Shown: in pieces, positions 48,117 through 52,062 of the stretch
Layout of the letters: each line of letters starts with the position of its first letter
Position numbering within the stretch: position 1 is the stretch's first letter
Assembly (NCBI RefSeq): GCF_001426185.1
Contig: NZ_LMRP01000001.1
Location: forward strand, 1,156,765-1,220,764
Direction of reading: 5' to 3'
DNA from: Rhodococcus sp. Leaf247
GTDB lineage: Bacteria > Actinomycetota > Actinomycetes > Mycobacteriales > Mycobacteriaceae
Length of the DNA: 64,000 bases
Program-made: the position numbers and the translations under genes
The notes under the pieces: generated by a model
Database searches by the model: none
What the model saw: only the letters and a program-made list of their open reading frames with translations
What the model was told of the DNA's origin: nothing

Positions 48117-48130
48117 TACCCCCGGGGGTA
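48117..48130. promoter_or_regulatory. CsoR/CstR-type operator, first of three
   Basis: TACCCCCGGGGGTA is a perfect 14-base palindrome flanked by GA and CT, the G-tract form bound by CsoR-family repressors. It lies 80 bases before the MmpL start. Confidence 0.75.
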
Positions 48131-48135
48131 CTTGC

Positions 48136-48198
48136 ATACCCCCCCTCGTATGTGGCACCGTGGGCGCAGTTCGGCCGTTCTGATACCCCCACCCGTAT
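48136..48198. promoter_or_regulatory. two further degenerate CsoR/CstR-type sites
   Basis: ATACCCCCCCTCGTAT (48136-48151) and ATACCCCCACCCGTAT (48183-48198) share the ATACCCCC-N5-GTAT outline with the perfect palindrome upstream. The second ends just before the AGGAG ribosome site, so binding here could block transcription directly. Confidence 0.6.
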
Positions 48199-48209
48199 AG
48201 GAGTACATC

Positions 48210-50363
48210 GTGTCCCAGTCCGACACCGTCGCCGAATCCCGACCTGGCGACCACCACGACAGTTCCCCCGGCCGCCTCGGCCGGTGGGGCGCGGCCATGG
48301 TCACCCGCCGCCGCTGGGTCTTCGGCACCTGGTTGATCTTGTTGATCGCCCTCGGATCCGTTGCGCCGTCGGTGTTCTCGTCCCTCGCCGGCGCCGGATG
48401 GCAGGCGAACGGATCGGAATCGGTCCAGGTCCGCGAGCTGGCCGAGGAACACTTCGGCGGCAACTCTTCCGCCGCCGTGCAGGTCGTCGTCCACAGCGAC
48501 TCCGGTGCGCTGACGGACCCAGCCTCCACCGCCGTTCTCGCCGAGGCCACCGCCATCCTCACCGGCGATCCTCGTTTCGGTGAGATCGTGCCCCCGCAGC
48601 CGGGGATGACCATCAGCCCCGACGGGCGCACCGGCATCCTCATTGCCGGGGCCGACGGCACCACCGACGAGATGGTCGCCGCCGTCGACGACGTCAAGGA
48701 CCAGCTCACCGCACTCTCCGGCGACGGCATCGAGGTCTATCCCACCGGCGCATCGGCGCTGTGGTCGGACTTCAACAAGGCCAACCACGACGCGATGATC
48801 CAGGCCGAACTCATCTCCTGGCCCGTCACCCTTGCCATCATGGTCCTCGCGTTCGGCTCACTCGTCGCCGCCGGATTACCCCTGCTGCTGACCATCGCCG
48901 GCCTCGTCGCCTCCGCGGGCGGGCTGGTCCTGCTCAACGAGATCACCCCGATCTCGGTGTGGGCCATGAACTTCGCCATGATGTTCGCGCTCGCACTCGG
49001 CATCGACTACGCCCTGTTCCTCGTCGCCCGCTTCCGCGACGCCCTGCGCTCCCGCGATCCCCGCGCGGCCGTCGCCGAGACCATGGACACCGCCGGCAAG
49101 GCCGTGGTCCTGTCCGGACTCACCGTCCTGGTGAGCCTGTCCGCCGTGCTGATCGTTCCCGCCCCCGCGGTGCGGACCATGGCGGTCGGCATCATGCTCG
49201 CCGTCACCTTCGTCCTGCTCGCCACCCTCACCCTGCTCCCCGCCGCCCTCGGTGCGCTCGGACCGAAGGTCAACGCCGCGTCCCTCCCCTACGCCAAGCG
49301 CCAGCAGCACCGCTCACCCATGTTCGCCGCATGGGGCGCACTCCTGCACAAGCACCCGTGGCCGTTCGCGCTCGCCTCGATCGGCGTCCTCGTCGCACTC
49401 GCACTGCCGGTCCTCGGCCTGAAGGTCGCGATGCCGTCGATCTCCGTCGTCCCCGAGGACGCACCCGTGCGGCAGGGCTACACCCTCGTCCAGCAGCAGT
49501 TCGGTGACGGCGCCCCCGGCGCACTGCAGATCGTCGTCCCCGACTCCGACGCCGCCGACACGGCCGCCGCGGCGGCGCAGGTGCCCGGCATCGCCATGGT
49601 CACCGCACCGCAACCCGCCGCCGACGGCTCCGGCTACGCACTCCTGCAAGCGATTCCGACGGTCGACCCCTCCGACGAGTCGATGGGCACCATCCTCGCC
49701 GACCTCCGCGGTCAGCTTCCGGAGTCGGCACTGGTCGGCGGCGCCCCCGCGGAGAACCTCGACCTGCAGCAGGCACTGAACGACTACCTACCGCTCGTCG
49801 TCACGATCATCCTGATCCTCGGATTCGTGCTGCTCCTCGTCGCACTGCAAGCACCCCTGATCGCTTTCCTCGGCACCGCGGTCAGCCTGCTCTCCACCGC
49901 CGCCGCGTTCGGCGTCGCCAAGCTGATCTTCCAGGACGGACACGGCGCCTCGCTGCTCGGATTCACCCCGCAGGGCTTCCTGAACGGGTGGGGACCGGTG
50001 TTCTTCTTCGCGATGATCTTCGCCATCGCCATGGACTACACCGTGTTCCTCCTCGCCACCGCCAAGGAGCACTTCGAGCGCACCGGCGACGCGACGACGG
50101 CCATGATCGACGGCCTCGCCCACTCCGGACGGGTCATCTTCGCCGCCGCCGCGGTCATGGTGGCGGTGTTCTTCACCTTCGCCCTCGCCGACCCGCTCCC
50201 GCCGAAGGAGATGGGCATCATCCTCGGCGTCGCCGTCCTCCTCGACGCTGTGCTCATCCGGTTGATCCTGCTGCCCGTCCTGCTGCGCGTGACAGGGTCC
50301 GCCGCCTGGTGGTCGCCCACGTGGCTCCGCAGAGCTCTCCCGTCCATCAGCTCCTCCCACTGA
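48210..50363 (+). CDS. MmpL-family RND exporter
   Basis: 717 residues. Two repeats, each with a first helix, a soluble loop and five more helices: helix 1 near 36-55 and near 385-400. [15 protein letters not shown] (about 263) and [15 protein letters not shown] (about 606) carry the Asp-Tyr pairs of the proton relay. Shorter than mycobacterial MmpL3-type proteins (about 950), lacking the long C-terminal domain. AGGAG precedes GTG 48210. It exports lipid or small amphiphilic substrates; under control of the CsoR/CstR-like repressor. Confidence 0.92.
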
Positions 50364-50381
50364 CCCCACGAAAGATTCCTC

Positions 50382-50801
50382 ATGAGCATCGCACTGACCA
50401 CCACCCTGACCGGCACCGACTTCGACACCGCCGTCCAACGCACCCGCAACGCCCTGGCACAGCAGGGATTCGGCGTGCTGACCGAGATCGACATGCAGGC
50501 CACCATGAAAGCCAAGCTCGACGAAGACATGGAGCGCTACCTGATCCTCGGCGCGTGCAACCCGCCCCTGGCCCACCGCGCCGTCGGCATCATGCGACAG
50601 ATCGGACTGCTGCTCCCGTGCAACGTCGTCGTCCGCGAAGACCCGGACAACGCGGATGTGATCATCGTCGACGCGATGAACCCCGACATCATGGTCGACG
50701 CAACCGGAGAGCCCGCACTCGGCGACGTCGCCCGCGACGCCGCGACCAAGCTCCGCGCCGCCATCGCAACACTCGCCGAGCAGCCGACACCCGAAAGCTG
50801 A
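50382..50801 (+). CDS. DUF302 protein
   Basis: 139 residues. [35 protein letters not shown] and [12 protein letters not shown] are the DUF302 fold, in which the CN(P/x)xxA and LLPCN segments are conserved. The family is common beside CsoR-type regulators and sulfur-handling genes but has no established biochemical role. It follows the MmpL gene by 18 bases in one operon. Confidence 0.9.
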
Positions 50802-50809
50802 GACCTCGA

Positions 50810-50823
50810 TGCCCCCGGGGGTA
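50810..50823. promoter_or_regulatory. CsoR/CstR-type operator before the repressor gene
   Basis: TGCCCCCGGGGGTA, one base from the perfect palindrome at 48117. It lies 38 bases before the repressor ATG, so an internal, autoregulated promoter is likely. Confidence 0.72.
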
Positions 50824-50860
50824 CCATCGGAGTCTCACAGTAATTCTGACAGGAGTTCAC

Positions 50861-51130
50861 ATGATCGGCGACGAAGACAGCATCGCACTGGTACTCAACC
50901 GGCTCCGACGCGCCAACGGCCAACTCACCGGGGTCATCTCGATGATCGAGAACGGCCGCGACTGCAAGGAGGTCGTCACCCAACTCGCCGCCGTCTCCCG
51001 CGCACTCGACAAGGCAGGATTCAAGATCGTCGCCACGGGACTGCGCGAATGCATGACCGGTGCCACCGCCGACAACAAGGAACCCATGACCGAAGCGGAA
51101 CTGGAAAAGCTGTTCCTCGCACTGGCGTGA
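50861..51130 (+). CDS. CsoR-family repressor, CstR-like (persulfide-sensor type)
   Basis: 89 residues, a DUF156 four-helix repressor. [20 protein letters not shown] and [18 protein letters not shown] are its core; the cysteines are Cys35 and Cys64. The copper-binding CsoR triad is Cys-His-Cys with His four residues before the second Cys; here that position is Gly60, so copper sensing is unlikely. Two cysteines without the His is the pattern of CstR persulfide sensors. AGGAG precedes ATG 50861. Its stop overlaps the beta-lactamase start. Confidence 0.85.
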
Positions 51131-52062
51131 CGAGTCGAGTACCGCGGCACATGCCGGCCCGACCGTGCGCCGCGCTCGCTGTCGTCGCTCTGGCCCTCAC
51201 CGCCTGCGCTCCCTCGGGGGGTGACCAGGGAGGCGTGCCTGTCTCGACGGATCCCACGTCGAACCAAGCAGTGCGCGAGGACTTCTCGACCGAACTACAG
51301 GCTGTCGAGGATCGCTACGACGTGACGGTGGGTGTCAGCCTCCTGGACACCGGGACCGGAGAGACGATCAGCTATCGCGGTGCCGAACGTTTCGGTTTCG
51401 CCTCCACTGTGAAGGTGTTCCTGGCAGCCGAGTTCCTGCGACGAACTCCTCAGGACGCTCGGGACGACATCGTGAGGTGGTCCGCGGCCGACATCGAGCG
51501 CGCGGGCTACTCACCGGTGACCACGGCACGTCTGGACACCGGACTCACTGCGGCCGAGTTGGCAGAAGCGGCCGTGCGGGCGAGCGACAACACGGCGACC
51601 AACCTCGTATTCGACCGGATCGGCGGTCCCGCACAACTCGATGCTGCTCTCTCCCGACTCGGTGACGACGTCACGGACATCGTCGACGTGGAGCCGGGCC
51701 TCAACACGGTCGAACCCGACAGCACCGCAAACACCACCACCGCCGACACGTTCACGGCGAATCTGGCCGCATTGCGAGGTGACGGCTCGTCCACCGATGC
51801 CGACGCAGCGACTCTGGTCGAGTGGATGAGCGAAAACGCCACCGGCGATGCACTCGTTCGTGCAGGGGCGCCGAGCGGATGGACGGTGGCCGACAAGTCG
51901 GGTGGCGCCGGGGGCGTGCGAAACGACATTGCCGTCGTCACACCACCCGGCCGTCCCCCACTCGTCCTGACGGTGCTGACACGGAAGAACGACCCCTCGG
52001 CACCGTACGAGGACGCCGCGGTGAGCGAGAGCGCCGCGGTTGTCCTGAACACCGTTCGGTAG
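51127..52062 (+). CDS. class A beta-lactamase lipoprotein
   Basis: 311 residues. Signal peptide with lipobox LTAC (Cys27), then S93-T-V-K96, S152-D-N154, E188-P-G-L-N192 and K256-S-G258: the full SxxK, SDN, ExxLN and KTG-type motifs in order and spacing. The start GTG overlaps the repressor stop (GTGA); ATG 51151 is an alternative. It hydrolyses penicillins and perhaps cephalosporins at the outer membrane face. The overlap puts it in the CstR operon. Confidence 0.9.

Follow-up and report, generated by a model that had tools for sequence, protein, structure and literature searches.

An MmpL exporter gene in a predicted CstR-type, persulfide-responsive operon of Rhodococcus sp. Leaf247

Described systems and the Rhodococcus locus

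A locus of Rhodococcus sp. Leaf247 encodes, in this order, an MmpL-type exporter, a DUF302 protein, a DUF156-family repressor, and a class A beta-lactamase; it lies in a 64,000-nucleotide stretch of contig NZ_LMRP01000001.1 that was analyzed as a whole and is called the window here. Among the closest described systems is that of ScCsoR (SCO0620) from Streptomyces coelicolor, a two-cysteine sensor that recognizes the operator ATACCn6GGTAT and is released from DNA by polysulfide (PMC7533328). ScCsoR represses the genes for a persulfide dioxygenase (PDO), TauE, and a rhodanese, with two sites in the PDO promoter, and it regulates its own gene (PMC7533328). The window's repressor is like ScCsoR in its DUF156 domain, its two cysteines 29 residues apart (positions 37 and 66 there, 35 and 64 here), its 16-base pair (bp) operator, the presence of two sites in the main promoter, and autoregulation, which is predicted here. 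The two differ in what they control: ScCsoR acts on PDO, TauE, and rhodanese genes, whereas no PDO was detected in the window's genome, and the terms MmpL and DUF302 are absent from the text of PMC7533328.

CstR of Staphylococcus aureus and other Firmicutes is likewise a cysteine-based sensor that represses adjacent sulfur detoxification genes, as outlined in PMC10318464 and PMC7533328. Its targets are rhodaneses, sulfite exporters, and SQR, whereas the window holds an RND-type exporter and a DUF302 gene. The SUL module of Antarctic Arthrobacter plasmids combines a CsoR-family regulator with a sulfur dioxygenase, rhodaneses, TauE, and DUF302, but its transporter belongs to the major facilitator superfamily instead of MmpL, and the module is described by annotation (PMC6305408). 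In Mycobacterium bovis, loss of mmpS6-mmpL6 in TbD1 lowers the expression of CsoR- and RicR-controlled copper genes (PMC9048740); there a transporter affects the copper response, whereas in the window a persulfide sensor is predicted to control a transporter. A sequence-only reading of the window had called its gene combination undescribed, which is true in part: a DUF302 gene next to a CsoR-family regulator is in print (PMC6305408), but the open-licence literature, covered mostly at listing level, yielded no paper in which a persulfide-type repressor controls an MmpL exporter.

We consider it likely, from comparison of sequences, that the locus is a reduced actinobacterial sulfide/persulfide-detoxification operon under a CstR-type repressor. 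The four genes that the sequence-only reading had named each code for a protein above its Pfam cut-off, and all are on the plus strand.

48210 to 50363, plus strand: MmpL/RND exporter of 717 amino acids; MMPL domain above the Pfam cut-off
50382 to 50801, plus strand: DUF302 protein of 139 amino acids; above the Pfam cut-off
50861 to 51130, plus strand: DUF156 repressor of 89 amino acids, predicted CstR type, with Cys35, Cys64, and Gly60; above the Pfam cut-off
51127 to 52062, plus strand: class A beta-lactamase of 311 amino acids; above the Pfam cut-off, with a lipobox-like LTAC (recognized by eye)

The repressor, its operators, and its conserved neighbors

The repressor contains a DUF156/Trns_repr_metal domain (81.1 bits; cut-off, 22.8), and the Cys35, Cys64, and Gly60 reported earlier are indeed present, Gly60 lying four residues before Cys64 at the position of the copper-ligand histidine. 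When a species-genome collection was scanned with the repressor, 142 relatives were found, and the 80 best of these were compared, a choice that favors close relatives. Together with the window they make up 81 loci (69 distinct repressor sequences), some of them in short stretches. Cys35 is present in 81/81 of these repressors and Cys64 in all 79 that reach that far, whereas position 60 is Gly in 77/79, Ser in 2/79, and never His. The Cys-His-Cys copper ligands of CsoR and RicR are thus not found in the window's protein, which has Gly60 in place of His. In the five Protein Data Bank (PDB) alignments printed, this position is His in InrS, 6ahx, and 4m1p, Ala in 7mq3, and Asn in 7mq1, which we take to be the pneumococcal CstR persulfide sensor. 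The one other DUF156 protein in the same genome (G000:C2:639903-640145, L096) has the His and is probably the candidate copper sensor of this organism. Taken together with the operators and gene neighborhoods described below, these residues favor the reading of the repressor as a predicted CstR-type persulfide sensor.

The sequence-only reading had placed three sites of the form ATACCCCC-N5-GTAT before mmpL and one before the repressor gene. The number and location of the sites stood, but the spacing did not: ATACCCCC-N5-GTAT has zero matches in the 64-kb window, and the corrected form is the 16-bp ATACCCCC-N4-GTAT. In addition, the site upstream of the repressor, which had been given as ATACCCCC, actually reads ATGCCCCC. 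The pattern RTRCCCCCNNNNGTAY occurs at four sites in the window compared with 0.02 expected in shuffled sequence, and one of the sites matches on both strands. Relative to the ScCsoR operator consensus, operators 1 to 3 have one mismatch each and operator 4 has two, a comparison that concerns only the presence of the sequence. These sites and the proposed mmpL promoter are as follows.

48116 to 48131, plus strand: operator 1, ATACCCCCGGGGGTAC, directly upstream of the proposed -35 hexamer; similar sites precede mmpL in relatives
48132 to 48161, plus strand: proposed mmpL promoter, TTGCAT-N18-CACCGT, put forward from its conservation
48136 to 48151, plus strand: operator 2, ATACCCCCCCTCGTAT, starting 20 bp after the start of operator 1 and lying mostly within the promoter spacer
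48183 to 48198, plus strand: operator-like element 3, ATACCCCCACCCGTAT, asymmetric, abutting the Shine-Dalgarno sequence AGGAG of mmpL
50809 to 50824, plus strand: operator 4, ATGCCCCCGGGGGTAC, beginning 52 bp before the repressor start

A sigma-70 consensus scan of positions 47900-52400 found no promoter, TTGCAT-N18-CACCGT included, so the mmpL promoter was predicted from conservation instead. Among the 81 loci, the sequence TTGCAT-ACCC-N14 followed by a loose -10-like hexamer is found upstream of 16/51 mmpL genes, 2/52 PDO genes, and 0/80 repressor genes. For operator 4, the position is the common one: of 68 repressor-upstream sites within 120 bp, 49 begin 46-54 bp before the start codon, and we infer that operator 4 serves autoregulation of the repressor. 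A 127-amino-acid frame at 47468-47848, upstream of the operators, has no Pfam match.

Operator-like sites are abundant across the 81 loci, with 247 in 777 kb compared with 4 for reversed patterns, and 198 of the 247 are located within 200 bp upstream of genes in the cluster. At least one site was found within this distance upstream of mmpL in 38/47 cases, of the repressor gene in 60/81, of PDO in 26/52, and of rhodanese genes in 6/10. Such sites are seldom seen before DUF302 (1/68), TauE (2/37), SQR-like (0/9), thioredoxin (0/11), or YgaP-like (0/19) genes, which fits the placement of these as later genes of an operon. The number of mmpL genes depends on the method used: 51 loci have any tblastn match, 49 have one by open reading frame (ORF) cluster, 47 have a usable upstream region, and 46 are plus-strand genes preceded by 60 bp of sequence.

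In the whole 4.5-Mb genome, the exact RTRCCCCCNNNNGTAY pattern occurs at two further places, compared with one match for the reversed control; according to our own ORF listing, one falls within a coding frame and the other between convergent frames. When one mismatch was allowed, 15 strand hits were obtained, 5 at the locus and 10 elsewhere. A wider regulon in this genome was rejected because the 10 further hits are about as numerous as the 9 hits of the control, and by the exact pattern the repressor is predicted to control just the mmpL locus. Four of the 10 further hits share CCCCCGCGAGTAC (G000:C2:660989, C2:662034, C2:369904, and C4:188110), which could be chance or another repeated motif.

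The genes found around the repressor in its relatives are largely of types known from sulfur metabolism. In this comparison the ORFs were called with our own script, except for two annotated plasmids, and genes were named PDO or SQR from their domain composition and surroundings. Of the 81 loci, 68 contain DUF302, 51 mmpL, and 48 an MBL-rhodanese gene of the persulfide dioxygenase type; 37 have TauE, 12 thioredoxin, 10 rhodanese, and 9 an SQR-like flavoprotein. One or more of four sulfur gene types (PDO, TauE, rhodanese, SQR-like) are present in 51/81 loci, and seven representatives were checked. On the two annotated Rhodococcus plasmids, pREL1 (NC_007491) and NZ_CP108044, genes for MMPL, a YgaP-like transmembrane protein, DUF302, TauE, the regulator, and an MBL protein stand in one row. 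These operons have the same gene types as the window, DUF302 included, and their proteins are close to the window's, with MmpL identities of 83.7% for pREL1 and 95.3% for NZ_CP108044 and repressor identities (residues 1-77) of 92.2 and 96.1%, respectively. They differ in having the extra YgaP-like transmembrane, TauE, and MBL genes, and a class A beta-lactamase is not annotated in the stretch shown.

As a second view of this association, 37 genomes of the genus, including that of the window, were surveyed; contig ends can hide neighbors in these counts. The repressor was found in 34/37 genomes (54 places at E 1e-15, some partial), mmpL orthologues in 32/37 (46 places at E 1e-150), and PDO in 23/37 (41 places at E 1e-30), whereas a mycobacterial PDO query at E 1e-60 detected 18/37 and under-counts the Rhodococcus type. 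All 46 mmpL places are within 3.5 kb of a repressor gene, 45 of them on the same strand. Conversely, mmpL lies no more than 3.5 kb away from 46 of the 54 repressor places, and PDO no more than 5 kb away from 22 of them. No PDO was seen in 11 of the 34 repressor-bearing genomes, the window's among them, and 10 of these 11 have mmpL; in the three genomes that lack the repressor, neither mmpL nor PDO was found. The MmpL exporter is the most faithful companion of the predicted CstR-type circuit, in which the sensor is ordinary and the output less so. Residue conservation, operator type, and gene neighborhood together support the earlier proposal that exporter, DUF302 protein, and repressor are jointly controlled, as predicted from these comparisons.

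MmpL proteins have mainly been studied as lipid and siderophore exporters. The window's protein has an MMPL domain of 231 bits in two stretches, contains Asp-Tyr pairs at positions 266 and 609, which we take by analogy with MmpL3 to be the proton relay, and contains no cysteine. Both Asp-Tyr motifs are present in 44/44 cluster members longer than 650 amino acids, and 33 of these 44 are free of cysteine. MmpL3, the trehalose monomycolate exporter, is its best PDB match and has the same MMPL domains and Asp-Tyr pairs in both halves, but the window's protein is shorter and reaches 196 of the 1400 bits required by the NCBIfam MmpL3 model. In the DUF302 protein, Cys59 and Cys80 are retained in 67/67 sequences and are also found in the solved relatives 1j3m and 1q9u. 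Pfam assigns DUF302 no known function; genes of this family lie between soxA and soxB in sulfur oxidizers (PMC5037610), and we infer a role of the protein in sulfane-sulfur handling.

The beta-lactamase gene and element 3

The beta-lactamase has the motifs expected of class A (S93-K96, SDN at 153, E189..LN, and KSG at 257) and scores 231 bits in the class A model NF033103, which requires 200. The GTGA overlap with the repressor gene, which had been noted earlier, was confirmed at 51127-51130 and is also present in the two other genomes with a beta-lactamase at this place. By itself, this overlap is weak evidence of coupling, because a GTGA end is found in 9/81 repressor genes and 7 of these 9, L030 among them, have no beta-lactamase match in the locus. 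The proposal that the beta-lactamase belongs to one functional regulon with the exporter was not supported: the gene is adjacent to the repressor in only 3/37 genomes and has no site within 200 bp upstream (0/1). As a conserved member of the unit it was rejected on the same count of 3/37.

The distribution of the gene in the genus was analyzed further. A beta-lactamase match at E 1e-20 is present in 23/37 genomes, 17 of them at only 33-37% identity. Matches of at least 59% identity are found in 6/37, of which the window's own genome, G012, and G013 have the gene directly behind the repressor, and G010, G017, and G018 have it elsewhere. The homologues of G010 and G017 (59-60% identity) have no repressor or GDSL gene in their stretch; that of G018 contains a stop, covers residues 79-309 only, and is beside a GDSL gene with no repressor and with transposase-like frames nearby (seen by eye). 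Three genomes with 91-92% identical MmpL proteins (G001, G002, and G005) gave no beta-lactamase match at E 1e-20. From this pattern the beta-lactamase looks like a lineage-specific addition. The synonymous divergence (dS) between the window and its relatives is 0.18-0.19 for the beta-lactamase and 0.20 for mmpL, and the ratio of nonsynonymous to synonymous divergence (dN/dS) of the beta-lactamase is about 0.3; the gene was thus already in place when these lineages diverged, and it evolves under selection.

It is plausible that the beta-lactamase is co-transcribed from the upstream promoters, since there is no gap between it and the repressor gene. The alternative that it is a chance neighbor, expressed on its own and with no tie to a sulfur signal, has only slightly less than an even chance of being correct. 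This alternative would account for the adjacency in just 3/37 genomes, for homologues in G010, G017, and G018 that occur with no repressor in the stretch, and for the seven of nine GTGA ends that lack a beta-lactamase. However, a consensus scan of the span from repressor to beta-lactamase turned up nothing resembling a promoter or a terminator; the overlapping GTG is, by eye, the sole ATG, GTG, or TTG from the end of the repressor to the lipobox in the other two genomes; and the dS and dN/dS values argue that the gene has been retained in place under selection. Cysteine hydropersulfide opens beta-lactam rings (Ono 2021, as cited in PMC11481527), which makes a tie of the beta-lactamase to a sulfur signal conceivable.

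The beta-lactamase frame is open upstream through the repressor (50809-52062, 417 amino acids), and gene prediction programs may therefore place its start too far upstream. The next gene is outside the conserved unit:

52095 to 53285, plus strand: GDSL/SsfX3-type gene behind the beta-lactamase; domain above the Pfam cut-off

In the three genomes with the beta-lactamase behind the repressor, a gene of this type comes next, and one is also found in G018 (stretch L124, 7565-8740), where the stretch contains no repressor; beta-lactamase and GDSL gene may travel together as a pair.

Element 3 is a distinct, position-bound element. An exact site lies in the 75 bp upstream of 31 of the 46 plus-strand mmpL genes, and 28 of the 31 are of the asymmetric form ATACCCCC[A/T]CCCGTAT. 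That form was counted 29 times across the 81 loci, and 28 of these copies stand at most 75 bp before mmpL; the sole exception, in L028, is upstream of DUF302 in a stretch with no mmpL match. The asymmetric C-rich element before mmpL occurs in Rhodococcus and Nocardia-type loci. Its near confinement (28/29) to the spot directly before the Shine-Dalgarno sequence, with an ACCC or TCCC core, and its location downstream of the proposed mmpL promoter raise the possibility, which we hold tentatively and think less likely than not, that element 3 is a leader element acting at mmpL translation and not a repressor site. Against this, the operator ends ATAC...GTAT are retained in it, the L028 copy is upstream of DUF302, L013, L053, and L069 carry variants that disrupt the possible AUAC/GUAU stem (read by eye), and its fold is not unusual (z of -1.7 and +1.6). 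An RNA-hairpin reading of the element is weak on account of the stem-breaking variants and the ordinary fold.

Proposed mechanism and the nature of the signal

In the mechanism that we propose, the reduced repressor would bind operators 1 and 2, which overlie or adjoin the proposed mmpL promoter, as well as operator 4 before its own gene. Modification of Cys35 and Cys64 by persulfides or polysulfides would take it off the DNA, and MmpL, the DUF302 protein, and the repressor itself would then be produced. The DUF302 protein may process sulfane-sulfur species by way of its two conserved cysteines, and MmpL may export either an envelope component or a hydrophobic product that contains sulfur. The beta-lactamase would have settled behind the repressor in one small lineage; because it is probably co-transcribed, it would be expected to rise with the same signal.

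The proposal that the repressor is of the CstR type draws on residue conservation, operator type, and the gene neighborhoods of its relatives, but the window's own locus has no genes of the sulfide-detoxification type, and several further observations weigh against a persulfide-responsive operon. The best-scoring solved relative of the repressor is InrS (47.0 bits), slightly above 7mq1 (43.2 bits), and its only NCBIfam matches, RicR (43 of 175 bits) and FrmR (29.1 of 133 bits), are far below their cut-offs, so that sequence similarity alone leaves the subfamily unsettled. None of the four sulfur gene types is seen in the stretch compared in 30/81 loci, the window's included. The proposed promoter spacing is present at just 16/51 mmpL genes, and no site is found within 200 bp upstream of 21/81 repressor, 9/47 mmpL, and 26/52 PDO genes. 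The closest solved relatives of the MmpL protein are named as lipid or siderophore exporters. In the window's own genome, finally, no persulfide dioxygenase was found at E 1e-30, the best match having 27% identity over residues 11-214.

RND pumps export amphipathic molecules. A broader sensor of thiol electrophiles or disulfide stress, with MmpL exporting toxic organic adducts, would be compatible with this property and with a repressor that has two cysteines only. There is also a precedent in TTHA1953 of Thermus, in which oxidation of two cysteines lowers the affinity for DNA (PMC10318464). However, the companion genes in relatives are of sulfur-metabolism types, and we regard this broader sensor as unlikely.

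That the MmpL exporter is controlled by a CsoR/RicR-type sensor of copper or another metal is very improbable: the DUF156 domain, the top PDB score of InrS (a nickel sensor; PMC4235346), the weak RicR match, G-tract operators that are common across the superfamily, and the tie of TbD1 mmpL6 to the copper response in M. bovis (PMC9048740) all speak for it, but His occurs at position 60 in 0/79 repressors, sulfur-type genes are present in 51/81 neighborhoods, and the second, His-bearing DUF156 protein of the genome offers another candidate for copper sensing.

Under the persulfide-sensing reading, a separate matter is how the window's genome would dispose of sulfane sulfur. It encodes an SQR-like flavoprotein (G000:C2:546760-547920, L130; 37% identity over residues 7-398 of 400), and no CstR-type site was found in the 4.2 kb around this gene. 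As judged from these homologues, the cell perhaps makes sulfane sulfur from sulfide with no usual enzyme to oxidize it. The presence of the SQR-like homologue together with the lack of PDO is the basis for supposing that export may stand in for persulfide oxidation in this genome. In its general form, the hypothesis is that in mycolic-acid bacteria MmpL and DUF302 make up a CstR-controlled export route for sulfane sulfur that replaces oxidation where PDO is lacking, and that in the window's lineage this switch also acquired the beta-lactamase, with reactive sulfur raising beta-lactam hydrolysis; we rate this as rather doubtful.

An MmpL clade never found apart from a persulfide-type repressor (46/46 places in the genus genomes) would have a new physiological role, one that could be approached by simple genetics. 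A link between this signal and the beta-lactamase, if true, would be relevant to antibiotic tolerance, given the opening of beta-lactam rings by cysteine hydropersulfide, but the arrangement was seen in just 3/37 genomes. DUF302, a family with no function in Pfam, recurs beside sulfur-type genes both here and in sox clusters (PMC5037610).

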